Virus record (IMG/VR): IMGVR_UViG_3300046009_011911
Span: 1 to 64,000 of that record
Length of the DNA: 64,000 bases
Reading direction: 5' to 3' (one strand)
From: a virus
The position numbers and the translations under genes were made by a program. Positions 23,258 through 59,526 of the stretch are shown here, piece by piece (position 1 is the stretch's first letter; each line of letters opens with the position of its first letter). The notes beneath the pieces are model-generated. The model was not told the origin of the DNA. It did not search any database and saw only the letters and a list, made by a program, of their open reading frames with translations.

Positions 23258-23322
23258 TACAACTGTAGTGCCGATAGTCGGGCTACACTATGTCATACTT
23301 GCTTAATAGAAAGGAGAATATT

Positions 23323-23766
23323 ATGACACAATTTGAACTTCGCACAATCGATCTTCCTACTTTTGCTCGTCACACAATTGGTTTTGACCGTCTATTCAAT
23401 GAGATGGGTCGTACTTTTGCCAATAGTCGTAACGACAATTATCCACCCTATAATATTGCACAACTAGATGACACACACTATGTGATCGAAGTGGCAGTTG
23501 CAGGGTTTGAGGAAGATGAGCTTGACATCGAACTTAAAGATCAAGTTCTTTTAGTAAAAGGATCCAAGGTTAAAAAAGACACACCAGAAATTACTTACGC
23601 CCACAAAGGCATCAGTACAAGAAATTTTGAACGTGTATTTACTTTGAATCCCGATGTGCAAGTCCGTGCAGCTACCGTTAAAAACGGTATTTTGGCTGTT
23701 GCTTTGGAACTAGTAATTCCAGAAGAGCAGAAAGCCAAAAAGATTGCAATTACTTACACTAAGTAA
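23323..23766 (+). CDS. Small heat shock protein (Hsp20/alpha-crystallin)
   Basis: 147 residues. RLFNEMGRTFANS and YPPYNIAQLDDTHYVIEVAVAGF begin the alpha-crystallin domain, GISTRNFERVFTL is the conserved centre and GILAVALELVIPEEQ carries the GxLxV-type end with the I-P-E tail. An ATP-independent holdase, IbpA-like. Start chosen at the ATG behind AAAGGAG. Followed by a terminator-like stem. Confidence 0.93.
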   Translation: MTQFELRTIDLPTFARHTIGFDRLFNEMGRTFANSRNDNYPPYNIAQLDDTHYVIEVAVAGFEEDELDIELKDQVLLVKGSKVKKDTPEITYAHKGISTRNFERVFTLNPDVQVRAATVKNGILAVALELVIPEEQKAKKIAITYTK

Positions 23767-23773
23767 TACAATC

Positions 23774-23803
23774 TTAGGGGGAGCAATCCCCCTAATTTAA
23801 TTT
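23774..23803 (+). terminator. Probable rho-independent terminator
   Basis: TTAGGGGGA and TCCCCCTAA around a 4-nt loop, then an AT-rich tract. Closes the hsp20 unit. Confidence 0.7.
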
Positions 23804-23812
23804 AAGATTAAC

Positions 23813-24127
23813 ATGACATCAATTGCTGAACCCAAGACTGTAACTAAAATTAAACCTAAATCAGACATCGCCAAGCCTGTACAATGGCATGTTATCTATA
23901 TCAATGATGAGGTCACTACTCAAGAATTTGTAATTGAAACTTTAATCATTGTGTTTAATTATGATAGAGACATGGCAGAAGAAATGACAATGAAGGTACA
24001 TACCGACGGGTCGGCCATAGTTGCTACACTACCATACGAAATGGCAGAACAAAAAGGTGTAGAAGTTACTCTACTAGCACGAAACAATGGTTTTCCATTA
24101 GTAGTAAAACTAGAACCAGAGTATTGA
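23813..24127 (+). CDS. ClpS-like ClpP protease adaptor
   Basis: 104 residues. WHVIYINDEVTTQEFVIETL and MKVHTDGSAIVATLPYEMAE match ClpS, which hands N-degron proteins to ClpA/ClpP. Pocket residues are N31, D32 and H63; the third acidic position is Glu33 instead of Asp. A ~20-residue flexible N terminus is present, as needed for ClpA delivery. With Hsp20 this forms a proteostasis pair. It could redirect the host N-degron pathway. Confidence 0.88.
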   Translation: MTSIAEPKTVTKIKPKSDIAKPVQWHVIYINDEVTTQEFVIETLIIVFNYDRDMAEEMTMKVHTDGSAIVATLPYEMAEQKGVEVTLLARNNGFPLVVKLEPEY

Positions 24128-24659: not shown

Positions 24660-25105
24660 ATAGAACATATTACTTAGCATATGGTATGAACACAAATCTC
24701 GATAGCATGAAATCGAGATGTCCTGCCGCCATTAGTTTAGGCAAAGTCTGGCTAGACGATCACAGATTACAGTTTAAATATTTCTGTGATGCAGAATATC
24801 ATCCAGGGTCCAAAATGCCTTGTGCACTTTGGTCTATCACTGATCGCTGCGAACAAAGTTTAGATAGGTTAGAAGGTTATCCAGATTACTATCTGAAAAA
24901 AGAAGTTTCAGTCATCTATGAAAATAAAACAATTAAAGCTATGATTTATTTTATGCCTGATGGTAATGACGTTCAATTCCCCAGCGAATATTATTTTGAC
25001 ACAGTGGTTACAGGGTATAAACAACATGGTATGACTCTGGAATCAATACTTAATGCATTAACAGATGTTACAAAGGAATCACAGAATGTTTATAGTATGG
25101 GATAA
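24656..25105 (+). CDS. Gamma-glutamylcyclotransferase-like (AIG2/GGCT family)
   Basis: 149 residues. YYLAYGMNTNLDSM is the YGSN-type substrate loop, a central PCALWSI follows and RLEGYPDYYLKKEV carries the LDxxEG motif with the catalytic Glu. The fold cleaves gamma-glutamyl amides to 5-oxoproline. An amidoligase candidate at 46099 could make the matching kind of bond. Confidence 0.82.
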   Translation: MNRTYYLAYGMNTNLDSMKSRCPAAISLGKVWLDDHRLQFKYFCDAEYHPGSKMPCALWSITDRCEQSLDRLEGYPDYYLKKEVSVIYENKTIKAMIYFMPDGNDVQFPSEYYFDTVVTGYKQHGMTLESILNALTDVTKESQNVYSMG

Positions 25106-25385
25106 GAATGTAGTTGAGAAACTACAAAATAATTACACTGTTCTAGAACTCGAAACTTTTACTAAAGATCAGACTGAAATCACTGCATATTGTGTGCTCG
25201 ACGAAGTCAGTGTTGCCGAACTTCCCACGTTAGATAATTCTAGACAAATGCATAATGCGTTTATAAACGAATATAAAAAAGGTAATTATAAATTTTGTGT
25301 AGATGCAGCAGAATTTTTGCGTGGTAAGTTCAACGGTGAATTAGATTCATTCTATGATGCTATTTTACAAAAAATTACCAATTAA
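25086..25385 (+). CDS. Small conserved phage protein
   Basis: 99 residues from ATG 25086, overlapping the GGCT-like end by 20 nt; the open frame begins at 25065. Mixed alpha/beta (MFIVWDKNVVEKLQNNY). No domain recognised. Confidence 0.6.
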   Translation: MFIVWDKNVVEKLQNNYTVLELETFTKDQTEITAYCVLDEVSVAELPTLDNSRQMHNAFINEYKKGNYKFCVDAAEFLRGKFNGELDSFYDAILQKITN

Positions 25386-25437
25386 CGTATAAGAAAACTT
25401 TTCTTTTCTCTTTTTTAAATAATAAGGAGGAAAGAAA

Positions 25438-25899
25438 ATGACTAAACTAGCAATTTCATTAGTTTTTTTCGCTGTCGTAGCTAAGACAGCCTCTTCTGCT
25501 CCGCTACCCGATTTTTCTTTTAAAAATCCCAGTTTTAATGGCATAGGATATAGTAGCCATGTTCTTACAATAGAAAATCAGGAAGCAGTTAGAAAAAAAG
25601 CAGTTGCAGATAAAATTCAAGCAGAATTAGATAAAATTAAAACTGCTGAGCAAAACAGCAATATCAATAAATTTTTGAACAATCTCGAGTCAAGGGTCTA
25701 TGCTCAAATAAGTCAAAATCTTGCAACCGCTATGTTTAAAGATGGTGGAAGTAATAGTGGTATTTTTACTTTTGACAATGCAACCAATACTCAAATAGCG
25801 TGGGAAAAAAATAGCCTTGATGGCACAATCAAATTAATTGTAACAGGTCCAGGAGTCAATACCACTGTGGTAGTGCCCTTAGGACAGTTTCAATTTTGA
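25438..25899 (+). CDS. csgF: Curli assembly protein CsgF
   Basis: 153 residues. Signal peptide at about 1-21 (cut after SSA), then the CsgF mature start with FSFKNPSFNG, the segment that plugs the CsgG channel in characterised systems. A polar helix follows, with a C-terminal beta part (KLIVTGPGVNTTVVVPLG). CsgF links nucleation to the CsgG pore on the cell surface. A strong AAGGAGG precedes. First gene of the curli cassette; its TGA overlaps the csgG start. Confidence 0.88.
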   Translation: MTKLAISLVFFAVVAKTASSAPLPDFSFKNPSFNGIGYSSHVLTIENQEAVRKKAVADKIQAELDKIKTAEQNSNINKFLNNLESRVYAQISQNLATAMFKDGGSNSGIFTFDNATNTQIAWEKNSLDGTIKLIVTGPGVNTTVVVPLGQFQF

Positions 25900-26708
25900 T
25901 TAGACGATATTTTATTTCATTAATTTTACTGCTCACATTATCAGGATGTGCTTTGCATCAACGGGCTAACGATTTAGAATATAAGCCTGAAATTACAAAA
26001 TCAATGATGCAAAGAGAATTAGAAAATGTCCCAGCCCCTGCCAGCGGAAAACCTGTAAGTGTGGCTGTCTACAGTTTTTTAGATAAAACCGGGCAACGCC
26101 GTCCTCAGACTAATGTAGCCAGTTTAAGCACAGCAGTTACACAAGGTGCTGAAGCTTTTCTCATTAAGGCTTTACAAGATGTTGGTCGTGGCAAATGGTT
26201 CGAAGTTGTAGAACGTGTTGGGTTAGACAATATTCAAAAAGAACGTTTGATAATTAGGCAAATGAGAGAAGCCTATGAAGGCAATAATGCTAAACCCTTA
26301 ATGCCCATGCAATTTGCAGGAATGATAATAGAAGGCGGTATAATAGGTTATGATACTAGTACTAAATCTGGAGGTTCAGGTGCAAGATGGTTGGGTATCG
26401 GTGCTCAAACGCAATATAGTGAAGACATTGTTACGGTCAGTCTAAGAGCAGTAAGTGTTAACACGGGAAAAGTCTTAATCACTGTAACAGTTCAAAAAAC
26501 AATTCTTAGCACAGCAGACAGTATTAATGCATTAAGATTTTTTGATTTGGGGACAAAAGCTTTTGAGGCTGAAACCGGATTAACTATAAATGAACCCGGC
26601 ACTTATGCAGTTAAAACAGCAGTTGAAGCGGCTGTTATAGAACTAATAAAAGAAGGTCAACGGAGAGGAGTATGGGATTTCAAAAAAGAAACTAAAGGAA
26701 CTGATTAA
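25896..26708 (+). CDS. csgG: Curli secretion channel CsgG
   Basis: 270 residues against 277 in E. coli. TTG start overlapping the csgF stop. Lipobox LSGC with Cys18, so an outer-membrane lipoprotein. The CsgG core is visible: VSVAVYSFLDKTGQRRP, ALQDVGRGKWFEVVERVGLDN, GMIIEGGIIGYD and an ITVTVQKTILS strand. Nine copies form the secretion pore for curlin subunits in known systems. Full length, so likely functional. Confidence 0.93.
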   Translation: MIRRYFISLILLLTLSGCALHQRANDLEYKPEITKSMMQRELENVPAPASGKPVSVAVYSFLDKTGQRRPQTNVASLSTAVTQGAEAFLIKALQDVGRGKWFEVVERVGLDNIQKERLIIRQMREAYEGNNAKPLMPMQFAGMIIEGGIIGYDTSTKSGGSGARWLGIGAQTQYSEDIVTVSLRAVSVNTGKVLITVTVQKTILSTADSINALRFFDLGTKAFEAETGLTINEPGTYAVKTAVEAAVIELIKEGQRRGVWDFKKETKGTD

Positions 26709-26731
26709 GGAATACAAACTTAATCTTATAA

Positions 26732-27511
26732 ATGATGACTAAAAAAATATTAATTACAATTTTGGCTAGTTTAAGTTTAATTAGCTATGCCGCAGACAAT
26801 ACAATTTATATTGATCAAGCGGGAGATAATGCAACTATAACCATGTTGCAGGACGGTGCAGGAAATAGAATCAGGGGTATTCAAGGAGTGGGCACAGGCA
26901 ATACAACTCCTGCAAAATTAACAGGTGATGCTATAACCGTAGACGTTCAACAAATTGGTAGTGGTAATGTATTGAATATGGGCATAGTTACTGCAACAGC
27001 TAATGGTAGTAGTCCTACTAATATTACCTATGTTCAAACAGGTAACAATGCAACTGCTACTTTAAATCTTAATAATTCTGGAGCAGGAACTAATGCCAGT
27101 ACAAATTTAAATATTACTCAAACTGGGGATGGTGGAATAACTGACCTTAACATTTTAGGATCTAACAACACAATGACCAGCGTTCAAAGCGGTGGTAATA
27201 ATAATGAATTAGTGGCAACTATTAATGCTAATCAAACCACCGTTAATATAAGCCAGACTGGCGGTGGTGGCAACGAAACTACATTAAATTTAACTGGAAA
27301 TAAAGGCACAGTTGACATTACTACAGTTGGAGCTACCAATACTACCAGTATTACACAAAGCGGGGGAAGTGTATCGGGCCATAATACAACTTTGGATTAT
27401 ACTGGTTCTGGTAACAATACCATTATAAGTCAAACTGGAACCATTGATACCACAGTTAATATAAAAAGTGTAGGATCCGGAAACGCATTTACAATCACTA
27501 CTCATAATTGA
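26732..27511 (+). CDS. Curlin-like amyloid subunit 1
   Basis: 259 residues. Signal peptide at about 1-20, mature start ADNTIYIDQAGDNATI. Many repeats of the Q-x-G-x-x-N type (IDQAGDN, VQTGNN, ITQTGDG, ISQTGGG, ITQSGGS, ISQTGTI) with alternating Thr/Ile/Asn, as in CsgA/CsgB curlin repeats. More repeats than the five of CsgA and almost no charged residues. It would be exported by CsgG as an extracellular amyloid fibre subunit. Confidence 0.85.
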   Translation: MMTKKILITILASLSLISYAADNTIYIDQAGDNATITMLQDGAGNRIRGIQGVGTGNTTPAKLTGDAITVDVQQIGSGNVLNMGIVTATANGSSPTNITYVQTGNNATATLNLNNSGAGTNASTNLNITQTGDGGITDLNILGSNNTMTSVQSGGNNNELVATINANQTTVNISQTGGGGNETTLNLTGNKGTVDITTVGATNTTSITQSGGSVSGHNTTLDYTGSGNNTIISQTGTIDTTVNIKSVGSGNAFTITTHN

Positions 27512-27518
27512 GGTAAAT

Positions 27519-28625
27519 ATGAAATTATGCAACCTACTTGCTTTACCCTTAATGATTACATTTTGGAACTGCAACGCAGGGATAGGGCAAGTTACGGAAC
27601 AATTGAATACCCCAGCAGTGATACAGAGAAAGGCAGAGAACCTTCAAGGGATCAAGGGTCAACAGGTGGAAATGTTAGATTCGATTCGAACTCAGCAGGG
27701 CAAAGTAGGAATAACATTTGAAGACAACACAAGAGTTCAAGTTAATGAAAACAGTAAACTTGTAATTGATGATTTTGTATATGATCCAAAAAGCAAGGGC
27801 GGTAAGTTAGGGGCCAAAGTCGCATTAGGCACAGTAAGATATGCCAGTGGACAGATTGCAAAAACTACCCCACAGAATGTTGCATTAAATACTCCTACTG
27901 CAACTATTTCAGTTCGCGGCACCGATTTTACTGCCACAGTTGAAGAATTTGGGCAAAGCACGGTTATTTTACTACCCAGCTGCCCCGACGACAAACCTAC
28001 TAGAACGAAAAATGATATTGCAAGTAATTGTATAGTGGGAGAAATTATAGTCGAAAGTGATGCAGGCACAGTGATACTAAATCAACCATTCCAAGCTACC
28101 AGAGTAGAATCAAGATCTGCGGCCCCATCCAGGCCTGTTATATTAAATTTAAGTGAAGATGCTATCGGTAACATGATAATTTTGAGTCCGCCTAAAGAGT
28201 TGAAAGATTCCAGAGAACAACAAAATCTTCAGAAAAGTTATCTAGATATGGATTTTTTAGCTGCAAACGGTCTAGAAAATGCATTAGATAAAGTACAGAT
28301 GCAGATATGGCAAGATAAATTAAGTTATACGTTTTTAGATAATAGCTTTCTAAACAATGTATTTGATATGATAGCAGATTCACTGAATGAAAAATTATTG
28401 GATGAAGTGGATACAGTTCTGCCAGATTATCGTAAAAGTAGCGGAGTTATCGCAGTAAAAGACGATCCGTTTGTCACATTATGTCGTGATAGCGGACAAG
28501 ACAAACAGTGTGTTACTACACCTATAAACCAAAGTGCCACATTGACGCAAACACAAGGATCAGTTACTATAAAGAACAGAATTAATCAAGGTACAGGCAC
28601 TATAATTACATTGATACAAAGATGA
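27519..28625 (+). CDS. FecR-domain exported protein within the curli cassette
   Basis: 368 residues. Hydrophobic signal-like N terminus (about 1-20). A FecR-type domain spans about 45-140: VGITFEDNTRVQVNENSKL, GTVRYASGQIAK and ATISVRGTDFTATV. A helical middle follows, then a C-terminal segment (ATLTQTQGSVTIKNRINQG) resembling curlin repeats. FecR domains sense or bind extracytoplasmic partners; here it may nucleate or tether fibres. It lies between the two curlin genes, 7 nt after one and overlapping the other by 4 nt. Confidence 0.78.
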   Translation: MKLCNLLALPLMITFWNCNAGIGQVTEQLNTPAVIQRKAENLQGIKGQQVEMLDSIRTQQGKVGITFEDNTRVQVNENSKLVIDDFVYDPKSKGGKLGAKVALGTVRYASGQIAKTTPQNVALNTPTATISVRGTDFTATVEEFGQSTVILLPSCPDDKPTRTKNDIASNCIVGEIIVESDAGTVILNQPFQATRVESRSAAPSRPVILNLSEDAIGNMIILSPPKELKDSREQQNLQKSYLDMDFLAANGLENALDKVQMQIWQDKLSYTFLDNSFLNNVFDMIADSLNEKLLDEVDTVLPDYRKSSGVIAVKDDPFVTLCRDSGQDKQCVTTPINQSATLTQTQGSVTIKNRINQGTGTIITLIQR

Positions 28626-29233
28626 AATTTTTAATATTATTTTTATTGCCAGCTATAGCTTTTGCATCCGATAATACCATTTATATCGACCAGATCGGTA
28701 ACAATAATATTGTAACGATTACTCAAACTGGAAGTTCTAATACAGTATCTGGAGTGTTAAAACAGGCCTCTTCAGTCCAGGGCGATTCAAATCAAATTTC
28801 CATTTCGCAAGATGTTTCTAATCAAATTAAACTAGATTTAACCGGCGACTATAATAATATTACAGTTAATCAAACTATTGGTAATATGGCAGAAACTACT
28901 GTCATCGGAAACAACAATACACTAAACTTTCAACAATTAAATTCTGGTTCTAAATCTATTACTGCGTCTATAACTGGAAACTCAAATCAAATTTCATCTA
29001 ATCAACAGGGCACCGGGCAACATCAATTAAATGTTTCATTAACGGGTAATGGGCACAATGTAACAAGTTTACAAAAAGATTCTGGTAATCACGCTGCTAA
29101 CATAAATCTTACTAATGCTGGTGGCGCTGCAACAGTAAATTTGACTCAGCAGGGATCGCTCGGTCAAACTTATTCATTGACACAAAGTTGCAGTATGGTT
29201 GGTGGATGTTCAACTTCAATAACACAACAGTAA
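28622..29233 (+). CDS. Curlin-like amyloid subunit 2
   Basis: 203 residues. Signal peptide at about 1-15, mature start SDNTIYIDQIGNNNIVTI, nearly the same as subunit 1, so the two are paralogues. Repeats such as ITQTGSSN, ISQDVSN, FQQLNSG and LTQQGSLG follow. The C terminus has two Cys (SCSMVGGC). By analogy one subunit may be the nucleator (CsgB-like) and the other the fibre body (CsgA-like); the sequence does not say which. Confidence 0.83.
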   Translation: MKFLILFLLPAIAFASDNTIYIDQIGNNNIVTITQTGSSNTVSGVLKQASSVQGDSNQISISQDVSNQIKLDLTGDYNNITVNQTIGNMAETTVIGNNNTLNFQQLNSGSKSITASITGNSNQISSNQQGTGQHQLNVSLTGNGHNVTSLQKDSGNHAANINLTNAGGAATVNLTQQGSLGQTYSLTQSCSMVGGCSTSITQQ

Positions 29234-29245
29234 TTCAAAAAAATT

Positions 29246-30064
29246 ATGGAAAATAAAATTCAAGTATTTGGTGGTTTAGGTTTTGTTGGCTCTGAGTTTG
29301 TAAAACAAAATCCTGAATGTATAGTAAACGAACGACACGACTACACAGTTAAGTCAAACAATATACTTTACTTGATCAGCACCATTAGTAACTACAACAT
29401 GCTTACTAATCCCTATATTGATATAGACACTAATCTTACTACATTGATGCGGGTACTAGAACAATGCAAGAATAACAATGTTACTTTTAATTTTGTAAGC
29501 AGTTGGTTTGTGTACGGTGATACCGATATGCCTGCCAGCGAAACAAGTATCTGCAGGCCCACTGGTTTTTATTCTATTACTAAAAAGGCGGCAGAAGATT
29601 TACTAATAACCTATTCCAAAGTTTTCGATATCAAATATAGAATTTTAAGATTAGCAAATGTAGTAGGTCCAGGAGATCCTAAAGCTAGTTTAAAGAAAAA
29701 TGCTTTACAACATCTTATTAATGAATTGAAAGCAAATAGAGATATCAATATCTATGACAATGGCAATATGTATAGAGATTATGTGCATGTGGAAGATGTA
29801 GCAAGAGCTTTGAAATTAGTAATGGACAAAGGGTTGACCAATGAAATATATAACATTGGCAATGGCAAACCTATTAAATTTAAAACTATTATAGACTATG
29901 CACATAAAATTCTTGCAAGTTCCAGTAATATGCATAATATTGATCCTCCCGAATTTCATAAAATAGTGCAAGTTCATAGTATGTTCATGAATACAGAAAA
30001 GTTAAAACAATTGGGTTATAAACCCAAGTTCAACATGGAACAGATAGTAGAAGATATGATATAA
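29246..30064 (+). CDS. NAD-dependent epimerase/dehydratase (extended SDR)
   Basis: 272 residues. FGGLGFVGSEF is the GxxGxxG NAD site, VSSWFVYGD carries the catalytic Ser region, YSITKKAAED is YxxxK, and RDYVHVEDVARAL matches nucleotide-sugar epimerases. It lacks a clear start codon alternative. Placed 12 nt after the curli cassette. Likely acts on an NDP-sugar for glycan synthesis. Confidence 0.85.
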   Translation: MENKIQVFGGLGFVGSEFVKQNPECIVNERHDYTVKSNNILYLISTISNYNMLTNPYIDIDTNLTTLMRVLEQCKNNNVTFNFVSSWFVYGDTDMPASETSICRPTGFYSITKKAAEDLLITYSKVFDIKYRILRLANVVGPGDPKASLKKNALQHLINELKANRDINIYDNGNMYRDYVHVEDVARALKLVMDKGLTNEIYNIGNGKPIKFKTIIDYAHKILASSSNMHNIDPPEFHKIVQVHSMFMNTEKLKQLGYKPKFNMEQIVEDMI

Positions 30065-30091: not shown

Positions 30092-32152
30092 ATGAATATT
30101 AAAAAAATACTGTTGTCCCCCTGGACAGCTCTACTAACTTTAGCTATTATTGTATCTATTAGAATAGCAGATCCCGCTTTTGTTGAATCTGTTAGGTTAC
30201 GGTATTTTGACAGTTTAATATTAAGTAAACCTGTAACTGAAAATAATATCTATACAGTAGATATTGATGAAGCTGCATTAGACAAATATGGCCAATGGCC
30301 TTTGCCCAGAGGTATATATGCTGAAATTATTGAGGATTTGTATAGAAGGAATGCTGGTCTTGTTGTTTTCAACGTTCTATTGCCTAATGCTGATAGAAGT
30401 AATCAAGATAATCGTTTGGTTAAAACATTAGAAAAACACGAAGTCATACTGCCTAGCGTACCCGCAGATAAAACAAGAAATACTCCTCGTAATCCAGGCA
30501 GCGTGGTTTTAGGTCCAGAATATTCTGACAGAATCGTGAACTATCCCGGTATCATTGCCAATATACCAGCCTTAGAACTTGCAGCAGCTGGTATAGGCAC
30601 AGTCCATACTTTACCTGAAATTGATGGCGTCAATAGACGAATGCCATTAATTATAGCTGTAGGAGATCGATTGTATCCTAGTTTATCAATTGAAACTCTT
30701 AGGGTAGCCGCAGGTGACACTACTGTTCAAATAAAACTAAATGAAAATGGTGTAGAAAAGTTACGGGTTCCTGCATTTGGTCCAGTGACAACAGACAGTC
30801 TTGGTCGTATATGGGTAGACTGGCAACAGCAAGCACAACAAGTAAGTTTAATGAACCTGCCTGATAATTTTGAAAAAGCAATTGTTGTGGTAGGTGTAAC
30901 AGCAGCAGGTTTATCTAATCCGGTTCCAACTAGTAAGGGTGCAGTGTTTCCGCATCATGCGCAGGCAGGAGTTATTGCAACTTTGATAAATCAAGTGGTA
31001 ATTCAACGCCCCGATTATGCAGATGGATTAGAAATTATTGCTATGATTGTGATTGGGTGTGTTATTTTATTTTTAACAAGGAAAATATATGTCGGTTTGG
31101 CTTCAGTTATTGTTTTGGTTGTCTCTAGTATTTTGGGTAGTATCTATGTTTATCAGTCCTTATTATTCCTTATTGACATTACTGCCATTACTGGCAGTAC
31201 ACTATTGGTCAGTCTTCACGCATACGGAATAAAATTTGTAAGCGAATATTTACAAAAACAACAAATTAAAAAACAGTTTGGAACTTATCTAAGCCCTGCA
31301 ATGGTTGAGAAACTGCAAAAAAATCCTGAACTGTTAACTTTAGGTGGTGAGTCCCGCGAATTAAGTATCATGTTTACTGATGTTAGAGGATTTACCAGTA
31401 TCAGTGAACATTATGGCAAAGATGTTCAGGGATTAACAAAGATTATGAATCGTTACATGACTGCCATGACTGCTAAGATTTTAGATAACCAAGGCACCTT
31501 AGACAAATATATCGGGGACGCACAGATGGCTTTTTGGAACGCACCATTAGATGATGCAGATCATGCCAAGAACGCAGTACGTACAGGTTTAGCTATGATG
31601 GGAAGTTTAGATGCATTTAATCGTGAAATTACGGCAGAAGGCGTACCGCCTTTTGGTATGGGTCTTGGCATTAATACTGACACCGTTGTGGTGGGTAACA
31701 TGGGAAGTAGTCAGCGTTTTGACTATACTTGCTTGGGTGACGGCGTCAATTTGGCATCCCGACTGGAGGGCCAGAGTAAACCGTACGGCGTCAAAATCGT
31801 ACTTGGCCCAAAAACTGCTGAATATGTAAAAGATGAGTATTTCGTTTTAGAATTAGACAAAATTGCAGTCAAAGGTAAAAAAGAGGGTGTTAATATTTTT
31901 ACAGTATTGCCTGAAACAGATGCAGGTGCATTGGCTGAATGGTTATTAGCAAAACAAGAACATGATCTGATGTTATCTTATTATAGGAAAAAACAATGGG
32001 ATCAGGCTCGCAAATTATCGCAGCAGCTTAAGGGTGAATTTGATTCTAATATGGATTTGTATTACGAAAGTTGGATTGAAAGAATCGAAGAAATGAGACA
32101 GAAAGAATTACCTGATAACTGGGATGGTACTTATGTGGCAACATCCAAATAA
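30092..32152 (+). CDS. CHASE2 sensor-adenylate cyclase (class III)
   Basis: 686 residues. An N-terminal hydrophobic segment (about 8-25) is followed by an extracytoplasmic CHASE2 domain (about 30-305, with KYGQWPLPRGIYAEII) and three hydrophobic segments (about 310-385). The class III cyclase domain covers about 420-600. Metal Asp residues sit in FTDVRGFTSIS and KYIGDAQMAFW, Lys and Asp of adenylate specificity in LDKYIGD and RFDYTCLGD, and N/R transition-state residues in VNLASRLE. It appears active and membrane-bound, able to make cAMP in response to an external signal. Confidence 0.92.
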   Translation: MNIKKILLSPWTALLTLAIIVSIRIADPAFVESVRLRYFDSLILSKPVTENNIYTVDIDEAALDKYGQWPLPRGIYAEIIEDLYRRNAGLVVFNVLLPNADRSNQDNRLVKTLEKHEVILPSVPADKTRNTPRNPGSVVLGPEYSDRIVNYPGIIANIPALELAAAGIGTVHTLPEIDGVNRRMPLIIAVGDRLYPSLSIETLRVAAGDTTVQIKLNENGVEKLRVPAFGPVTTDSLGRIWVDWQQQAQQVSLMNLPDNFEKAIVVVGVTAAGLSNPVPTSKGAVFPHHAQAGVIATLINQVVIQRPDYADGLEIIAMIVIGCVILFLTRKIYVGLASVIVLVVSSILGSIYVYQSLLFLIDITAITGSTLLVSLHAYGIKFVSEYLQKQQIKKQFGTYLSPAMVEKLQKNPELLTLGGESRELSIMFTDVRGFTSISEHYGKDVQGLTKIMNRYMTAMTAKILDNQGTLDKYIGDAQMAFWNAPLDDADHAKNAVRTGLAMMGSLDAFNREITAEGVPPFGMGLGINTDTVVVGNMGSSQRFDYTCLGDGVNLASRLEGQSKPYGVKIVLGPKTAEYVKDEYFVLELDKIAVKGKKEGVNIFTVLPETDAGALAEWLLAKQEHDLMLSYYRKKQWDQARKLSQQLKGEFDSNMDLYYESWIERIEEMRQKELPDNWDGTYVATSK

Positions 32153-32291
32153 TTATTATAATGCTTGGTTTGACTACTGGATATACTGTAATTTGGTAGC
32201 TCAATATTTGCCACTAATGCTGTACACTAGTTATGATGAATATTTTAAAACTGTGTGTATGAATGGAATTAAAAATAATACAAAAGTTTAA
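32133..32291 (+). CDS. Small aromatic-rich protein, 52 residues
   Basis: ATG inside the cyclase end, in another frame. Tyr/Trp/Asn-rich (YYNAWFDYWIYCNLVAQYLP), ending KNNTKV. Its stop overlaps the convergent minus-strand gene by 4 nt. No domain recognised; real by spacing and composition, moderate certainty. Confidence 0.45.
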   Translation: MWQHPNNYYNAWFDYWIYCNLVAQYLPLMLYTSYDEYFKTVCMNGIKNNTKV

Positions 32292-32665
32292 CCTTCACCT
32301 GCATTAGCAGTTTGTTGATCTTCTTTATCTGGTTTTTTATCTGCCTTTTTATCTGCGTCCACTATAGCTTTTTTAAACTTACGATCCGCTTCATTATCGA
32401 CTTTAACTGCTTCTAAAACACGTTCACTTTCTATAATTTTACCTCTGAGATGAAGAACTGTGTTGACCTTCTGTTGCATTCTAATTAAATCATTATCTAA
32501 CATTCTTATGCGATCAATTAAGGCAATAAGTGTAGTGTTAGCTTCACTAAGTACAGGCTTTATTTCTTTAGTAGCCCATTCCCAAACATAATATATCAAA
32601 TACCCCATTCCTGCGGCTGCTACAATGGGGAATCCGTATTTGTTTATTAATTCAACTACATCCAC
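32288..32665 (-). CDS. Membrane-anchored charged protein
   Basis: 125 residues: one hydrophobic segment at about 10-30, a helical middle and a Lys/Asp-rich C terminus. It resembles the 32849 protein in layout (N-terminal GFPI-A-A segment then helix), so the two may be paralogues. Last of a three-gene minus-strand cluster. Confidence 0.6.
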   Translation of the reverse strand: MDVVELINKYGFPIVAAAGMGYLIYYVWEWATKEIKPVLSEANTTLIALIDRIRMLDNDLIRMQQKVNTVLHLRGKIIESERVLEAVKVDNEADRKFKKAIVDADKKADKKPDKEDQQTANAGEG

Positions 32666-32848: not shown

Positions 32849-33130
32849 TTAATCTCGCCTAGCATCATTTTTCCCGTCAGCTCGGGCAATACGATCTACA
32901 TCGGGTTTCAATCCTAATGCATTGCTCACAATGGTATCTATCCTTATCACATCATGGTTCATAGTCTTAACACGATTATCCAAGGCCATAATAATACCTT
33001 TTAAGCCGTTCACACTGCCAGTTACACCAGCTAAAATAAATTTAAGGGTCAAAAATACAAAGTAACCCGCAGCGATTGCACCAGCTATAGGAAATCCAAC
33101 TTCGGCAACTAATTTGAAAAATTCACCCAT
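32849..33130 (-). CDS. Small membrane-anchored protein
   Basis: 93 residues; hydrophobic segment at about 12-36 (GFPIAGAIAAGYFVFLTL), then a helix. First gene of the minus cluster, with a GGAG site and a GATAAATA box upstream on the minus strand. Unknown role. Confidence 0.6.
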   Translation of the reverse strand: MGEFFKLVAEVGFPIAGAIAAGYFVFLTLKFILAGVTGSVNGLKGIIMALDNRVKTMNHDVIRIDTIVSNALGLKPDVDRIARADGKNDARRD

Positions 33131-34321: not shown

Positions 34322-35578
34322 ATGCAAGTTAATCGAAAAAAAATTGGATTCATTGGAATAGGAAAGCTGGGACTAGACTGCGCCGAAGTAATGGCAGAAA
34401 AGCATGAAGTCCGCGGCTATGATATTTACCCTAAACAAAGTGACAGTGTAAAAGTTTGTGGTATTGAAGAACTCATCAATGAAAGTGAGTGGATTTTTAT
34501 TGCAGTACCCACCCCACATGCTGAGGGGTATGACGGCAGCGTGCCTAGCAGTCATATGGAACCTAAAGATTTTGGGCATGATGCAGTTCTAGATGCTATT
34601 GAAAATGTTAATCGCTTTGCAAAAACACAAAAGAAAGTAGTTCTAATTAGTACGGTACTGCCAGGCACGACTCGAAGAAAGTTTGTTCCGTTACTAGATA
34701 AAAAACATTTGTTCCTGTACAACCCTTATTTGATTGCCATGGGCAGTGTAAAATGGGACATGGCCAATCCAGAGATGGTTATTATTGGAACTGAAGATGG
34801 TAGTCTAACAGGTGTAGCTGGTGAACTTATTGATTTGTATAAAACTATTATGCAAAACGATCCGCGCTATGAAGTTGGCACTTGGGACGAATGCGAAGCC
34901 ATCAAGATTTTCTATAACACTTTTATCAGTGCTAAAGTTGGTTTGGTGAACATGATTCAGGATTTTGCATTGCGTATAGGTAATATTAATGTCGATATAG
35001 TGACGAATGCGTTAGCCCGTAGCACCATGCGGATTATGGGTCCAAAATATATGACTGCTGGAATGGGAGATGCAGGTGCATGTCATCCCAGGGACAATAT
35101 TGCACTACGTTGGTTGGCACAAGAGTATGACATTGGGTACGATTTGTTCGACACTGTGATGCATGCTAGAGAAATTCAAGCAGAAAATCTTGCTAAATTT
35201 TTAATTGAAGTCAGTGCCAACAATGGTGGACTTCCCATTGTGATTCATGGTAAAGCATATAAACCTGACGTGCCTTACTGTATTGGGTCTTATTCAACTC
35301 TGGTGGGTCACTATGTAACCAAACATGGACATACGGCGTTAAAATATGTAGATCCATTGGCAGATGATCCGGCTGATGTTGTAGCAGACATCGATCATCC
35401 ATCAGTGTTTTTGTGGGCACATAGTAGAAAAATTACTTATGAGTATACTGGAGAACAGGCAGATACGAAACCTTATTGCACGATACCTGATGGTTCAATC
35501 ATTGTGGATCCTTGGAGGAAACTGTCTTCTACCGAGGCTGTTAAAGTGATCCACTATGGCAACACTAGACATAGTTAA
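34322..35578 (+). CDS. UDP-glucose/GDP-mannose 6-dehydrogenase-like
   Basis: 418 residues. IGFIGIGKLGLDCAEVMA is the NAD-binding GxGxxG; FIAVPTPH, ISTVLPGTTR and LFLYNPYLIAMG follow the family order. The active-site region GDAGACHPRDN holds the catalytic Cys (canonical GGSCFPKD). C-terminal domain VIHGKAYKPDVPYCIGS is present. It oxidises an NDP-sugar C6 to the uronic acid. Overlaps the 35556 gene by 23 nt. Confidence 0.85.
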   Translation: MQVNRKKIGFIGIGKLGLDCAEVMAEKHEVRGYDIYPKQSDSVKVCGIEELINESEWIFIAVPTPHAEGYDGSVPSSHMEPKDFGHDAVLDAIENVNRFAKTQKKVVLISTVLPGTTRRKFVPLLDKKHLFLYNPYLIAMGSVKWDMANPEMVIIGTEDGSLTGVAGELIDLYKTIMQNDPRYEVGTWDECEAIKIFYNTFISAKVGLVNMIQDFALRIGNINVDIVTNALARSTMRIMGPKYMTAGMGDAGACHPRDNIALRWLAQEYDIGYDLFDTVMHAREIQAENLAKFLIEVSANNGGLPIVIHGKAYKPDVPYCIGSYSTLVGHYVTKHGHTALKYVDPLADDPADVVADIDHPSVFLWAHSRKITYEYTGEQADTKPYCTIPDGSIIVDPWRKLSSTEAVKVIHYGNTRHS

Positions 35579-36074
35579 ATTGCATATTGATCCGTTTTGG
35601 GATCACGAATACCGATTTCTTTACTACATTCACGAATCATTTAATGATGTCGACAGTTTGAATCGTTGGAGAAATTTAGGATATAGCGGTCTCTTTACTG
35701 GAGCAATGTGTGATATGCGTAGTCGCCAACCAAGTTGGAATTCAAAGTTTATTGAATATTTTTCCAAACTTGGTTGGAATAACATTGGTACTAGCTACTA
35801 TAGAATGGACACAGGAACAGTTCTTCCAACTCACAGTGACTTGTATACGAAATATATAGACTTATTTGGCCTACATAACAAGAAAACATCTATTTTCAGA
35901 GCAATTGTGTTCTTAGAAGATTGGCAGTCTGGACACTACGCTGAATATAACAACCAACCTTATGTAAATTGGAAGGCGGGAGACTGTGTCTACTGGCAAT
36001 ATGATTTACCTCATATGGCAGCAAATATAGGAATAGCTCCTAGATATACACTACAAATTACCGGGCATATATGA
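35556..36074 (+). CDS. 2-oxoglutarate/Fe(II) oxygenase-like or aspartyl-hydroxylase-like protein
   Basis: 172 residues. LPTHSDLY gives an HxD pair, FRAIVFLEDW and NWKAGDCVYW follow, and DLPHMAANIG with a later RYTLQ gives the distal His and Arg, as in double-stranded beta-helix oxygenases. The substrate may be a sugar or peptide. It lies between the nucleotide-sugar dehydrogenase and the amidinotransferase with overlaps on both sides. Confidence 0.68.
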   Translation: MATLDIVKLHIDPFWDHEYRFLYYIHESFNDVDSLNRWRNLGYSGLFTGAMCDMRSRQPSWNSKFIEYFSKLGWNNIGTSYYRMDTGTVLPTHSDLYTKYIDLFGLHNKKTSIFRAIVFLEDWQSGHYAEYNNQPYVNWKAGDCVYWQYDLPHMAANIGIAPRYTLQITGHI

Positions 36075-37084
36075 AAGTTTCAAGTAAAAATGAATACGAC
36101 ATGTTGAAATCTTGTATAGTGGGGGACGCAACTGGTGCAAGATTTCCCAAATTGGATGAAATATTTGACTATAATAAACAAATAACCAATTGGAAAGAAA
36201 CACCATTACCTGAGGGTGAATTTCCAAAACATATTATAGAAGAAACTAACGAAGATTTAGAAATCCTGTCAAACACTTTAAAATCCTTTGGAGTAGAAGT
36301 TTATAGACCAAATGATTTGGATCACAGTCACATTGTACGCACTCATGAATGGGAAACTGATGGTATGTACAAGTATTGTCCCAGGGATGTGTTATTGGTA
36401 GTAGACGACCTTGTCATTGAAGCACCCATGGTGTATAGAAGTAGACAGTTCGAGGTCAGTGCGTATTGGAAAATTAAAGTCAAAGCCATAAGAGACAATG
36501 CCAGATGGATTTCGGCACCTAAACCCAGATTGCTCACACAGGATTCATATGTTGTAGATAATAACATAGTGTTAAGTGAACGGGAGCCTATGTTCGACGC
36601 TGCAAATATATTAAGACACAATGATGACATTTTGTACTTGATCAGTAACACTGGTAATAAACTAGGTGCCAAATGGTTGCAGAATATTTTGGGATCGAAT
36701 TATCGTGTGCATGTATTGGAAAATTTGTATTCATACGCTCATATAGACAGTACCATTTCTATTCTAAGAGACGGGTTGGTCATGTTGAACGCATCACGTA
36801 TAAAATCACATAATTGTCCAGATTTCTTCGACGGCTGGAACAAAATTTATGTAGAAGATGTAATTCCGCAATCTTTTTACAATTATCCATATGCTAGTAA
36901 ATGGATAGCTATGAACGTGCTAAGTATCGATCCCAATACAGTAATTGTAGATAAGACCCAAATTAGTCTAATTAAACTAATCGAATCTTATGGAATTACT
37001 GTAGTGCCTCTGGAATTAAGACATAGTAGAACTTTGGGCGGCGGATTTCATTGTGTGACTCTTGATTTACTGCGGGTATACTAA
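36071..37084 (+). CDS. Amidinotransferase-like protein
   Basis: 337 residues. YCPRDVLLVVDDLVIEAPM and a RSRQFE segment match glycine/inosamine amidinotransferases, and GGGFHCVTLDLLR carries the catalytic Cys of the pentein fold; DHSH and a central H-x-D are candidates for the rest of the triad. It would move an amidino group from arginine to an amine, for example on an amino sugar. Overlaps the oxygenase by 4 nt. Confidence 0.8.
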   Translation: MKVSSKNEYDMLKSCIVGDATGARFPKLDEIFDYNKQITNWKETPLPEGEFPKHIIEETNEDLEILSNTLKSFGVEVYRPNDLDHSHIVRTHEWETDGMYKYCPRDVLLVVDDLVIEAPMVYRSRQFEVSAYWKIKVKAIRDNARWISAPKPRLLTQDSYVVDNNIVLSEREPMFDAANILRHNDDILYLISNTGNKLGAKWLQNILGSNYRVHVLENLYSYAHIDSTISILRDGLVMLNASRIKSHNCPDFFDGWNKIYVEDVIPQSFYNYPYASKWIAMNVLSIDPNTVIVDKTQISLIKLIESYGITVVPLELRHSRTLGGGFHCVTLDLLRVY

Positions 37085-37094
37085 ATATCATATT

Positions 37095-37817
37095 ATGCGT
37101 AACTTTGTTGATTATAGTAGTGTGATATCAGATGCGTACGATCTTCATACAAAAAAATCTGAAATTATTGACAGAAAAAGAGAAATCTTGGACAAAGTTT
37201 TAGAATATTACAATCTGAGCCCAAAAAGTTATCTCTTTATCGGATTTAATCCTTTAATTTTTACTTTGTCCAATTCTTGTTCAGTGACTGTTTCACAGGT
37301 CAGCGATTCTATTGTGCAAACTTTAAACAAACAAAGAGCAGTAAATACTTTAAAAAACGTCCAGTCTGAAAAATTTGATTGTGTTATTGCAGCAGATGAA
37401 TTTCTGACCTTTGCAGAAACTGACGAAGAACAAAAAAATAACATAATGACACTTTGTACCTTAAGTAAAGATATAATTATAACTACAGTAAAAGACTACA
37501 AAAACCAGGACTTTAAAGATCGTGAATATAGTAGTCCTGCAATAATCAAATCACAATCAACAACAACTGCATTTACTGAAATTCACAATTGGGATTTTCA
37601 AGACAAAAATAAATGGACTACAGCAGTGTATCAACTTCAAAATGAATCTGCAGTTTGTCGTGGTTTGTATTCAAGAAGAACTTTATATTTCAAACAGTTA
37701 GCTAAATTCTGCAAAGATTATGGAGCTGCCGATTTTCTTGTGCATAAAAATTTAATGTATAAGAGTTTGATCAAAAAAAATTATGAACATGTAATCAGCG
37801 TAAGATTTGACAATTAA
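37095..37817 (+). CDS. Degenerate methyltransferase-like phage protein
   Basis: 240 residues from ATG 37095, 7 nt after a CTAAATA box; the open frame starts at 37062. A YLFIGFNPLIFTL strand replaces the usual Gly-rich AdoMet motif, and FDCVIAADEFLTFAE looks like motif IV. The Rossmann core is therefore plausible but AdoMet binding is doubtful. Ends where the uvdE promoter begins. Confidence 0.5.
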   Translation: MRNFVDYSSVISDAYDLHTKKSEIIDRKREILDKVLEYYNLSPKSYLFIGFNPLIFTLSNSCSVTVSQVSDSIVQTLNKQRAVNTLKNVQSEKFDCVIAADEFLTFAETDEEQKNNIMTLCTLSKDIIITTVKDYKNQDFKDREYSSPAIIKSQSTTTAFTEIHNWDFQDKNKWTTAVYQLQNESAVCRGLYSRRTLYFKQLAKFCKDYGAADFLVHKNLMYKSLIKKNYEHVISVRFDN

Positions 37818-37835
37818 TAGAAAATATTCTATAAT
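37807..37835 (+). promoter_or_regulatory. Sigma70-type promoter of uvdE
   Basis: TTGACA, 17 nt, TATAAT; the uvdE ATG follows 6 nt after the -10 box. Confidence 0.8.
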
Positions 37836-37841
37836 TGTTGC

Positions 37842-38885
37842 ATGACTACAATTCAACGTATTGGTTTCGCTTGCAAATGGATCGATCACCCCGATCAAAT
37901 AAACGGTATTCGACCAAAAGACGCCGCCAGAAAGTATAACACTGGCACCACCACTATTACTTGGCTAAATCGTCAAAGTAAAAATATTGCTGAACAAAAA
38001 CTTTGGGATTTGATGAAACAAAACATCGAATCTATTCGTAATTTAGTCGCAAAAGTTGGAGAACAAGAACATGAGCTTAGGATGGTTCGTCTTTCAAGTG
38101 ATATTTTGCCTGCTTTTACTGAGCCTGGCTGGCGTTACTTTTGGAAGCTACCTGATGTACAAAGATATGCAGAGCGGGAGTTTGCTAAAGTCGGAGTGCT
38201 GGCTCGGGATCGCGATGTTCGTCTTAGCTTTCATCCTGGCCAGTTCACTGTGCTTGCTAGTGATAACCCTGAGATTGTTGAACGTAGTATAGAGGAGTTT
38301 GAATATCATGCTACAATGGCCGCTTGGATGGGCTTTGCCCAAAGATTTCAAGACTTTAAAATCAATGTCCACATCGCGGGTAGAGCCGGTCCAGAAGGTA
38401 TCCGACGGGCCTATTCGCGACTCAGTCCAGAAGCCCGTAACACACTCACAATCGAAAATGAAGAAATAAGTTATGGACTGGAAGATTGCCTTAGTATTAG
38501 CGACATTGTGCCTATCGTTCTTGACATACATCATCATTGGATACGCGAAGGGGTATACATTGACCCAAATAGCGATAGCGTTAAAAGAGTGGTGGATAGT
38601 TGGCGCGGTCGTAGGCCTGCTATGCATTACAGTGTATCTCGGGAAGATCTTTTGGTGGATCATCCCCGAGACCGGGTTCCCAATTTTCAAACCTTAATGG
38701 AATCTGGGCACAAGCGACAAAAGCTTAGAGCTCACAGTGACTTTTATTGGAATGACATGGTCAATCGTTGGGCAGTTAGTTTTTTGCCCAACTTCGATAT
38801 CATGTGCGAATCCAAAGGAAAAAATCTAGCCAGTTTTGCACTGCATAAATTTCGTAAAGAAATTTTAGATCAGACTAGCAATTAA
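37842..38885 (+). CDS. uvdE: UV damage endonuclease UvdE
   Basis: 347 residues, TIM-barrel nuclease. IGFACKWID at the N terminus, RLSSDILPAF, RLSFHPGQFTVL, NVHIAGRAG, TIENEE, VLDIHHHWI and RAHSDFYWN supply the metal-binding His/Glu/Asp residues of UvsE/UvdE enzymes. It nicks 5' of UV photoproducts and starts repair. Probably leaderless: the ATG sits where transcription should begin. GC-rich relative to neighbours. Confidence 0.93.
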   Translation: MTTIQRIGFACKWIDHPDQINGIRPKDAARKYNTGTTTITWLNRQSKNIAEQKLWDLMKQNIESIRNLVAKVGEQEHELRMVRLSSDILPAFTEPGWRYFWKLPDVQRYAEREFAKVGVLARDRDVRLSFHPGQFTVLASDNPEIVERSIEEFEYHATMAAWMGFAQRFQDFKINVHIAGRAGPEGIRRAYSRLSPEARNTLTIENEEISYGLEDCLSISDIVPIVLDIHHHWIREGVYIDPNSDSVKRVVDSWRGRRPAMHYSVSREDLLVDHPRDRVPNFQTLMESGHKRQKLRAHSDFYWNDMVNRWAVSFLPNFDIMCESKGKNLASFALHKFRKEILDQTSN

Positions 38886-56213: not shown

Positions 56214-56511
56214 ATTTGACTGAGTTTTTTAATTCGTCGTAGATTTTTACAATGTTTAATTGACTGGGATCGGATAGTCGATCTGAAGGCACTGGCAATT
56301 GCTGCCATTCTTCTTCAGACAGATCACAGGCAATAAAAAGTTCGTATTCGTGACCATCACTGGTGTAGAAAGTTACAGTCTCCATTCCAATTACACTGCG
56401 TGATGCTGATTCAGCTGCCCGAGCCAGATCCCGTAGTGCCTGAGGTTCCGCCACAATGTAAGCTCTTGTTTTAGGACCTTTATTGGAATGGAGATGTAAT
56501 CTTGTTTTCAT
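56212..56511 (-). CDS. Small phage protein, unknown
   Basis: 99 residues. RLHLHSNKGPKTRAYIVAEP at the N terminus, then a helix-rich half. Start overlaps the stop of the DnaE-like gene (ATGA), so the two are one operon. Unknown role. Confidence 0.65.
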   Translation of the reverse strand: MKTRLHLHSNKGPKTRAYIVAEPQALRDLARAAESASRSVIGMETVTFYTSDGHEYELFIACDLSEEEWQQLPVPSDRLSDPSQLNIVKIYDELKNSVK

Positions 56512-58178
56512 TCTAGGTGTTTAATTTCACTAAGTTTCAACTTCTTGTGTTTGTATATTGTAACATACTCTGTATTGTTTTTGTAGCCTAGTTTTCCCAT
56601 TCCCCATAGAATCTGATGTTCATGAAAACTAGTTGCATGTCTTAATACAACATCTAAATAACGACCATTGCCTGTGCCTAATGTAGCAAAGGTAATATAA
56701 TCCTTGGGACCAGATTTGAACACACGATAGTTAGCCACAAGACCACAAAATTCCACTTCACCAGGGCGTCTTATTTCTCTGCAAGCTGGAATGAATCTTG
56801 GACTGTTCCAACGCCCTGTTGTCATTAGTTCACTTACTTCATAACCTTCAAATGGTGATCCAACTACACCAGCCAGTTTTGCTTCCTGCCAATAGACCCA
56901 TTGTGCATAGCTGCCTTGACAATGTTTTAATGCTGCCCGCCAAAACTCTTTAGTGTTATGTGCTTTATGATAAGCCAATGCCCAAATTAAACGACCTAAA
57001 TTTGTAGCATGAGCTCTACAAAGACCAAAATGACTGAGTTCTTTAAGTGCGGCAAATACATCATCTCGTCGGGGATGGTCACCTACTAACTGCATAAACT
57101 CAAACATTTTTTCTTCGTTCTTTTTAGCGAATGCACGCCGCCACATGTCTGCTTCATATTGATCGCAGCCTAAAATTTCTCCAATCAACTCGATGGCATC
57201 ATCCTCAAATACTATGGTATTATCAAATCCATCTTTGCTCCAGTCTTGAAAGAAACTGGCACGCCGACGACCTTGCGTGGCCACTGGTCTGATCAATGCT
57301 GTGGCCATGACACAATCTGATCTATTCTTAGGCTGTATTGCACGAAACAGTCTTTTCATAGCAGGGCTTTCTGCCTGTGTAACCCCCAATACATCACCAC
57401 GGGCCAATAACTCTGCGGTGGCTTCATCCTCTTCAGGATAGTCTAGTATATCACGTTGATCTATTTCCCACAGTTGACTTAGTCCTCTGTTGGCCAATAT
57501 ATCGATTTTGAAATGTTCTAGATCCTCGATTTCATATTTGTCTAACAATATTTGATTTTCTGCATTTATAAGACTTTTTGGAACAGCACGATCAAATATC
57601 AGTATACCACCACAATGCTTAGATATACAACGTTTTTTACCTAGCAATTTTTTAGCTAAACGATGTGCATCTTCTGCATACTCAGGTACCACATCTTCTA
57701 ATTTAAAATTACGTTTTAGCTTTCCTTTGGCACCATATCGTTTAGCTGCCTCACGCATAGCAGATTTTTCTTTGTAAGTAACGTAATTACTGACTCGAGC
57801 ACTTTGACCAGGCCAGCGACGAAAGATTCGATTCATCACAGTTTCTTGCTGCCAATGCGGAAAGTCTAAATCGATGTCAGGAAGATCATCACGTTTTGGA
57901 TTCATGAAACGTGACAGGGGTATACGATCTGCTACTGGGTCCACGCTAGAAATACCCATGAGCCAACAAATCAAACTGGACCCTGCTGACCCACGGGTAA
58001 TGTGAGGTATATCTTTGGTTAGATCTAGTATTTCACGCACACGTAGAAAGTGTTTTGCAAAACCTAGTCGGGCTATTAATTCTAATTCTTCTTTGAGCCT
58101 TAAATTATATTCTTCAGTGTCTGGTATTTCTCTAATAAATTTATTAATTAGTAATTGAAGTTCATCATATCTATCCAT
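56508..58178 (-). CDS. DnaE-like family C DNA polymerase without PHP domain
   Basis: 556 residues, against ~1160 in bacterial DnaE. HITRGSAGSSLICWLMGISS (about 59-78) and PDIDLDFP with D101 and D103, then HFKIDILANRGL with D226, give the three catalytic Asp of family C. The palm, thumb and part of the fingers are present; the N-terminal PHP domain and the beta-clamp/OB C-terminal part are missing or minimal. It could be an accessory or translesion polymerase (ImuC/DnaE2-like role). Confidence 0.85.
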   Translation of the reverse strand: MDRYDELQLLINKFIREIPDTEEYNLRLKEELELIARLGFAKHFLRVREILDLTKDIPHITRGSAGSSLICWLMGISSVDPVADRIPLSRFMNPKRDDLPDIDLDFPHWQQETVMNRIFRRWPGQSARVSNYVTYKEKSAMREAAKRYGAKGKLKRNFKLEDVVPEYAEDAHRLAKKLLGKKRCISKHCGGILIFDRAVPKSLINAENQILLDKYEIEDLEHFKIDILANRGLSQLWEIDQRDILDYPEEDEATAELLARGDVLGVTQAESPAMKRLFRAIQPKNRSDCVMATALIRPVATQGRRRASFFQDWSKDGFDNTIVFEDDAIELIGEILGCDQYEADMWRRAFAKKNEEKMFEFMQLVGDHPRRDDVFAALKELSHFGLCRAHATNLGRLIWALAYHKAHNTKEFWRAALKHCQGSYAQWVYWQEAKLAGVVGSPFEGYEVSELMTTGRWNSPRFIPACREIRRPGEVEFCGLVANYRVFKSGPKDYITFATLGTGNGRYLDVVLRHATSFHEHQILWGMGKLGYKNNTEYVTIYKHKKLKLSEIKHLE

Positions 58179-58950: not shown

Positions 58951-59526
58951 ATGAAAACAGTTGGTGATCGACTTGAACCTTTTGTTGTTACCGGTGTGCG
59001 GCCGGGACAACCCGATGATGCTTTTTTCGATATTACAGAAGAAAGTTTTAGTGGTAAATGGAAAGTTATCGTTTACTACCCAAAAGATTTTACCTTTGTT
59101 TGTCCCACAGAGATTGTGGCCTACGACAAACTGGCCCAAGACTTTGAAGACCGTGATGCTGTACTGCTTACTGGCAGCACTGACAACGAATTCTGTAAAG
59201 TTGCTTGGCAACGTGCTCATCCTGATCTACAGAAAATTCGCCACATTCAATTTGCCGACACGCAACGTAATCACTGGAATGAGTTTACCGGTGAAACTGT
59301 TCGTCGAGGACTGATTGATCAATTGGGTTGTTTCTATCATCCTGCTGGTGCTGCGCTTCGTGCAACTTTCATCGTGGACCCCAACAATGAAATTCAACAT
59401 GTCACTGTGAATAACCTCAATGTTGGACGTAGTCCAGAAGAAACGTTGCGTGTTCTAGATTCTCTTCAGACAGGAGAACTTTGTGCTTGCAATCGTGCTG
59501 TTGGTGGCGACACTCTAAAGGTATAA
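58951..59526 (+). CDS. ahpC: Peroxiredoxin (AhpC family)
   Basis: 191 residues, typical 2-Cys length. DFTFVCPTEI holds the peroxidatic Cys51; CAC near the C terminus (178, 180) includes the resolving Cys; EAWxW is replaced by FCKVAWQRAHPDL. It reduces H2O2 and organic peroxides. AAAAGGA site. First of the ahpC-terC-ahpD set, 4 nt before the TerC gene. Confidence 0.93.
   Translation: MKTVGDRLEPFVVTGVRPGQPDDAFFDITEESFSGKWKVIVYYPKDFTFVCPTEIVAYDKLAQDFEDRDAVLLTGSTDNEFCKVAWQRAHPDLQKIRHIQFADTQRNHWNEFTGETVRRGLIDQLGCFYHPAGAALRATFIVDPNNEIQHVTVNNLNVGRSPEETLRVLDSLQTGELCACNRAVGGDTLKV

Follow-up and report, generated by a model that had tools for sequence, protein, structure and literature searches.

A phage curli-type module from a separate virus-only CsgG clade: gene order, conservation and variable heads of the second curlin among relatives

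Bacterial curli systems, such as csgBAC-csgDEFG of Escherichia coli and the csg operons of Alphaproteobacteria, share the CsgG pore, CsgF and substrates with curlin repeats with modules that are carried by phages. Part of a phage curli set was described in 2020 (PMC7029224); the full set, FecR and cyclase genes included, followed in 2022 (PMC9599517), and metatranscripts of homologous marine modules have been reported (PMC9599517). The order csgF, csgG, curlin, FecR, curlin, cyclase is already published for Pelagibacter and OM43 phages, and HTVC008M, the HTVC023P-type phages and Melnitz (OM43) have it in the same orientation and without CsgE. In this study we analysed 64,000 nucleotides (the window) of the 79,237-base IMG/VR virus record IMGVR_UViG_3300046009_011911, in which an initial annotation, made from the sequence alone, had recognised a curli cassette. 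That annotation had taken a set with substrate paralogues to be far more complete than the single CsgG-like genes noticed in aquatic viromes, a view overtaken by the complete sets published in 2020-2022 (PMC7029224, PMC9004378, PMC9599517). What is new here is a further example in a separate large virus-only CsgG clade, the heads of the second curlin, and the features of the FecR-domain protein. To our knowledge, an amyloid fibre has been demonstrated for no phage so far. Judged from its genes, the module makes it rather probable that infected cells export adhesive amyloid fibres through a phage type VIII secretion (curli) system, with adhesion as the likeliest benefit.

The five genes between 25438 and 29233 are co-oriented, and neighbours either overlap or lie close together; their order is CsgF, CsgG, first curlin (CurA), FecR-domain protein and second curlin (CurB), with the FecR gene between the two curlins and not after both, as the initial annotation had listed them. 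Their identity and consecutive arrangement, as initially annotated, were borne out by the open reading frames (ORFs) and by Pfam, NCBIfam and structure-sequence matches (Table 1). CsgG is indeed a full-length lipoprotein, matching E. coli CsgG structures at E 6e-50 over residues 4-265, and its gene has a TTG start and a 4-nt overlap with csgF. The export signals annotated for all five proteins could likewise be read from the sequence: CsgG has the lipobox LSGC, and the remaining four proteins carry Sec-type signal peptides. In the alignment CsgF has, besides its signal peptide, the conserved N-terminus FKNPSFxGxGYSSH. In E. coli, the FKNPSF motif region at the N-terminus of CsgF inserts into CsgG; the phage protein keeps this region, a point in favour of the export of adhesive fibres. 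The five genes are not the whole module, which extends past an epimerase gene as far as position 32152, the end of a CHASE2-adenylate cyclase gene, and has a 106-aa gene before csgF. CsgE was found in none of the 17 records tested, with a positive E. coli control, which agrees with its annotated absence; CsgC and CsgD, also annotated as absent, were not seen among the neighbouring ORFs, and no model search was made for either.

Both substrates are curlin-like. CurA has a signal peptide followed by ADNTIYIDQAG, and the profile of its family matches the solved CsgA structures 8c50 at 1.9e-19 and 8enq at 1.1e-4. The window CurA alone gave no Pfam match, and Curlin_rpt was matched by 36 of 44 family members. 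The AlphaFold2 (AF2) model of CurA is all-beta (predicted local distance difference test score, pLDDT, 83; predicted template modelling score, pTM, 0.80); the predicted fold had no significant match among solved folds, though the sequence profile does match CsgA. Curlin-type motifs are commoner in CurA and CurB than in composition-matched shuffles. By inspection only, the substrates of the window have no obvious E. coli-type N22 segment, unlike those of bacterial curli.

The module is widely kept. Scans of viral contigs gave at least 572 stretches that encode CsgG relatives, and the gene order was invariant in the 77 distinct viral loci that had sufficient flanking sequence, in which CurA and CurB were assigned by position: csgF, csgG, CurA and FecR in 77/77, with CurB in 76/77 and with the cyclase in 64/77. 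The ratio of nonsynonymous to synonymous substitution rates (dN/dS) against the nearest relative was 0.09-0.14 for every core module gene, which indicates purifying selection on all five, and about 0.1 in curlin pairs, so that the substrates are maintained as proteins. A quick maximum-likelihood (ML) tree placed the window CsgG within a virus-only clade of 66 rows (support 99) that is distinct from the group of the pelagiphages and Melnitz. In the same tree almost all bacterial csg operons fell outside the viral CsgG, with the viral rows and those of module-bearing metagenome-assembled genomes (MAGs) splitting off together (support 99). MAG contigs assigned to Rhodobacteraceae, Pelagibacter and Pirellulales that carry the module look like misbinned phage DNA, because they are short and group with viruses. 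A 705-kb MAG contig of Hyphomonas sp. TMED17 (L167) carries csgF, csgG, a curlin-like gene, FecR and cyclase, and its FecR protein is without the beta tail described below; this locus looks bacterial and is possibly a cellular relative of the phage module.

Compared with the pelagiphage and Melnitz modules, the window proteins are 44-47% (CsgG), 40-42% (FecR) and 37-40% (cyclase) identical. The window differs from them not only in its CsgG clade, but also in the epimerase inserted before the cyclase, in a free cyclase-tail gene before csgF, and in the place of the phrog_18771 genes, which here follow the module on the opposite strand and do not precede it. A further difference is that contigs of its relatives reach 338 kb; the large ones have a T4-type gp23 and a family B polymerase (PolB).

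Across relatives the second curlin, CurB, varies in length between about 170 and 840 aa, and at least 60 aa stand ahead of the first repeat in 62 of 84 distinct CurB proteins. Among 49 family members, PA14 was recognised in 11, GLEYA in 5, F5/8C in 4-5 and curlin repeats in 26. These heads have been gained, lost or swapped among close relatives: the head class was unlike in 22 of the 80 pairs whose FecR proteins are at least 75% identical, and L084 and L085, with FecR proteins 95% identical, have CurB of 435 and 191 aa, respectively. Individual second curlins include one with an F5/8-type C head at the N-terminus (L018:12424-14151), one with a PA14 N-terminal head (L145:10071-11297) and, in HTVC008M (L003:10638-11963), one with a head that is PA14-like by eye and clusters with the main head group. 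No mention of CurB heads was found in the literature searched.

The FecR domain (PF04773) was present in 80/80 family members, and the window protein shares the FecR-domain fold with the FecR/PupR anti-sigma regulators. Its predicted fold matches PupR CCSSD (6ovk) at 3.8e-4 and, more weakly, 5ix9, an anchoring domain of a bacterial adhesin; no sequence link to solved structures was found. It differs from these regulators in having a Sec signal peptide and a C-terminal beta tail of its own, with no cytoplasmic anti-sigma N-domain and no transmembrane helix; the sole N-terminal helix comprises residues 2-17. The reading of this protein as an iron regulator in the literature is doubtful, because the signal peptide directly adjoins the domain and neither an anti-sigma domain nor a membrane helix is present. 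The tail (residues 309-367) is conserved, glutamine-rich and glutamine-ending. A glutamine occurs within the last four residues of 79/80 homologues, as against 20% of other ORFs, and the last ~60 residues were modelled as six strands with pLDDT about 90, in a whole AF2 model with pTM 0.49. That the tail is a true curlin repeat had been suggested by eye and by the glutamine ending; this was rejected, since the hidden Markov model of the tail scored curlins no better than shuffled curlins, and the Pfam curlin repeat was absent from all 80 members. We describe it only as a beta tail, curlin-like in appearance. A role of the protein in anchoring, nucleating or sensing is only hypothetical.

Of the csg loci fetched from Alphaproteobacteria, the great majority showed no FecR and CHASE2-cyclase beside csgG, and no bacterial donor was found by way of FecR-cyclase pairs in 385 sampled Alphaproteobacteria genomes. 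Matches to FecR that ranked after the seed genome (E 1e-36 or weaker) were mostly inside larger proteins, some of them RTX-like. Those FecR-domain relatives in Alphaproteobacteria that come closest to the phage protein (L250-L278) also stand mostly in larger proteins, with frames up to about 6,900 aa and RTX-like repeats in at least one, which suggests that FecR domains are anchoring parts of adhesins.

The cyclase of the window has all of the metal, substrate and transition-state residues in the alignment (D430, K472, D476, N553, R557). The gene before csgF is a stand-alone homologue of the cyclase's C-terminal region; a profile of such upstream ORFs matches residues 568-671 of the window cyclase at 1e-14, plus 91 full-length viral cyclases (E<=10), and homologues of the gene occur in 48 viral loci. 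As a free protein it may regulate the cyclase or compete with it. The 'histidine kinase' published as lying before csgF (PMC9599517) was not found in the window, where the gene in that place matches the cyclase tail and has no kinase domain. In HTVC008M and Melnitz a small phrog_18771-type protein precedes csgF. The phrog_18771 proteins may be the 'histidine kinase' of the literature, though no kinase domain was seen in them. It is likely that the published names FecR and 'histidine kinase' will both have to be corrected. The epimerase is a variable passenger that was found in 13 of about 160 loci.

Table 1. Features of the curli-type module and its borders in the window
Feature	Position	Strand	Evidence
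Stand-alone 106-aa protein, homologous to ~100 C-terminal residues of the module cyclase	25065..25385	+	Profile of upstream ORFs
Shine-Dalgarno AAGGAGG	25424..25430	+	7 nt upstream of csgF ATG, read directly from sequence
CsgF, extracellular coupling factor of the CsgG pore	25438..25899	+	PF10614 E 5.8e-10; phrog_35372 6e-46; alignment
CsgG, outer-membrane curli pore lipoprotein	25896..26708	+	PF03783 E 6.4e-50
CurA, first curlin (CsgA-like), 259 aa	26732..27511	+	NCBIfam CsgA 5.7e-11; family profile; AF2
Exported FecR-domain protein, 368 aa	27519..28625	+	PF04773 E 4.1e-10; fold match; AF2; tail statistics
CurB, second curlin, 203 aa in the window	28622..29233	+	PF07012 E 4.4e-5; family scan; head analysis
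NAD-dependent sugar-nucleotide epimerase/dehydratase	29246..30064	+	PF01370 6.7e-32
CHASE2 sensor and class III adenylate cyclase	30092..32152	+	PF05226 8.4e-36; PF00211 1.3e-18
Small membrane and coiled-coil protein, phrog_18771	32288..32665	-	phrog_18771 6.5e-31; 88 viral loci
Second phrog_18771 paralogue	32849..33130	-	phrog_18771 4.4e-34; 86 viral loci

In the mechanism that we infer, CsgG would form a nonameric pore in the outer membrane of the host during infection, and CsgF would dock in this pore. CurA as the bulk subunit and CurB as a minor or tip subunit would be exported and polymerise into amyloid fibres at the surface of the infected cell. In the periplasm or at the pore, the FecR-domain protein would act as an assembly, anchoring or checkpoint factor and not as an iron regulator, and the CHASE2-cyclase would report the state of the envelope as cyclic AMP (cAMP). 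The fibres would keep neighbouring cells or particles near, so that released phages would meet new hosts; they may in addition shield against other phages. That the phage makes and exports its own amyloid fibres had been put forward in the initial annotation; the curli cassette on which this rested fits all of the sequence evidence. Gene identity, order, conservation and selection, and the heads in relatives, are shown by the sequences; pore assembly, export, fibre formation, the roles of FecR and cyclase and the benefit are inferred. The roles offered there are largely those already discussed in print, where superinfection exclusion, 'sibling capture' and import have been considered (PMC7029224, PMC9004378, PMC9599517).

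Several points weigh against this mechanism. CsgE, the secretion adaptor canonical in enterobacteria and present in bacterial curli, is missing, although literature cited in PMC7029224 describes it as not essential. Cells infected with Melnitz, the one isolate examined, showed no clumping in cytograms or by transmission electron microscopy, and the CsgF of this phage was modelled as diverged (PMC9004378). The CurB of the window is itself headless, and the adhesive reading therefore depends on the relatives. The record is, moreover, a 79-kb fragment.

A possible but less likely alternative is that the fibres do form and that their main job is superinfection exclusion, with an amyloid coat that would mask receptors or trap competing virions. 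This was proposed in PMC9599517 and draws on the same sequence evidence as export of adhesive fibres; genes for surface sugars (a UDP-glucose dehydrogenase at 34322 and the epimerase at 29246) are also nearby, the type of island that was tied to receptor change in PMC7029224. The carbohydrate-binding CurB heads of the relatives, however, would serve for adhering to other surfaces rather than for passive masking. We consider it unlikely that the module is chiefly a signalling device, in which the export status of the curlins would be sensed, cAMP would reprogramme the host and fibres would be secondary. The FecR protein and the CHASE2-cyclase are nearly always present, the catalytic residues in the window are intact and a free copy of the cyclase C-terminal region lies upstream of csgF, all of which would suit signalling; but the cyclase, unlike the curlins, is missing from 13 of the 77 modules (some maybe cut by locus ends), and in the alignment the Melnitz cyclase has N changed to S at a transition-state position.

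We also think it quite unlikely that only the pore matters, CsgG and CsgF being an uptake channel or a pinholin-like lysis regulator and the curlin genes not encoding fibre subunits. The authors of the Melnitz study preferred such a pore or lysis-timing role on the assumption that csgA and csgB were missing (PMC9004378), and phrog_18771 small membrane proteins border the module, one of them weakly resembling a holin family over 19 residues (E 0.0028). Curlins are nevertheless present in 76-77 of the 77 modules, match solved CsgA and are under purifying selection, and an adhesive fibre is favoured over a bare pore because the CurB of relatives bears swappable heads of carbohydrate-binding type. 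Bacterial contamination or a bacterial curli operon borne by a prophage is very improbable: curli are a bacterial system and the 705-kb Hyphomonas contig carries a comparable locus, but the window CsgG groups with viruses alone (support 99 in the quick tree), the flanking phage genes are common to about 100 viral loci, relatives carry gp23, terminase and PolB, and the module also occurs in cultured phages.

Genes for Hsp20, a ClpS-like protein and an exonuclease precede the module and are common to 67-100 of the viral loci. The Hsp20 (IbpA-like) and ClpS-like adaptor genes are at 23290-24127 in the window, kept just upstream of the module in about 100 viral loci, and it may be no coincidence that a chaperone and a protease adaptor stand beside an amyloid system. 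The T4 late-promoter octamer TATAAATA occurs 10 times in the window against 8.4 expected, which is no excess, and none stands before csgF; a sigma-70 promoter scan of the window found 41 against 41.1 expected, again without excess. Elsewhere, the window encodes a 556-aa DNA polymerase III alpha-like protein with NTPase and finger domains (56508-58178, minus strand), and relatives also have a family B polymerase. Auxiliary genes at 34322-38885, 58951-59526 and 61584-62591 encode UDP-glucose dehydrogenase, UV-endonuclease UvdE, an AhpC/TSA peroxiredoxin and a PstS-like phosphate-binding protein.

A bolder form of the adhesive-fibre reading, speculative and in our view rather unlikely, is that a very large group of T4-like jumbo phages makes amyloid adhesins with interchangeable tips, in which CurA would be the shaft, CurB would bring swappable glycan-binding heads, and the FecR protein with its beta tail would anchor or nucleate the fibre at the pore and signal its assembly to the CHASE2-cyclase. 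If true, a cAMP switch would be coupled to a fibre in a way that has no counterpart in the regulation of known curli systems. The module is common and is set as a six-gene unit in large phages beyond the marine SAR11 and OM43 phages. If it works, the phage gives its host a surface organelle that the host may never have had. The swappable heads are the first sequence clue known to us as to what phage curli do, namely adhere, and with them the 'function unclear' of phage curli becomes a direct binding test.

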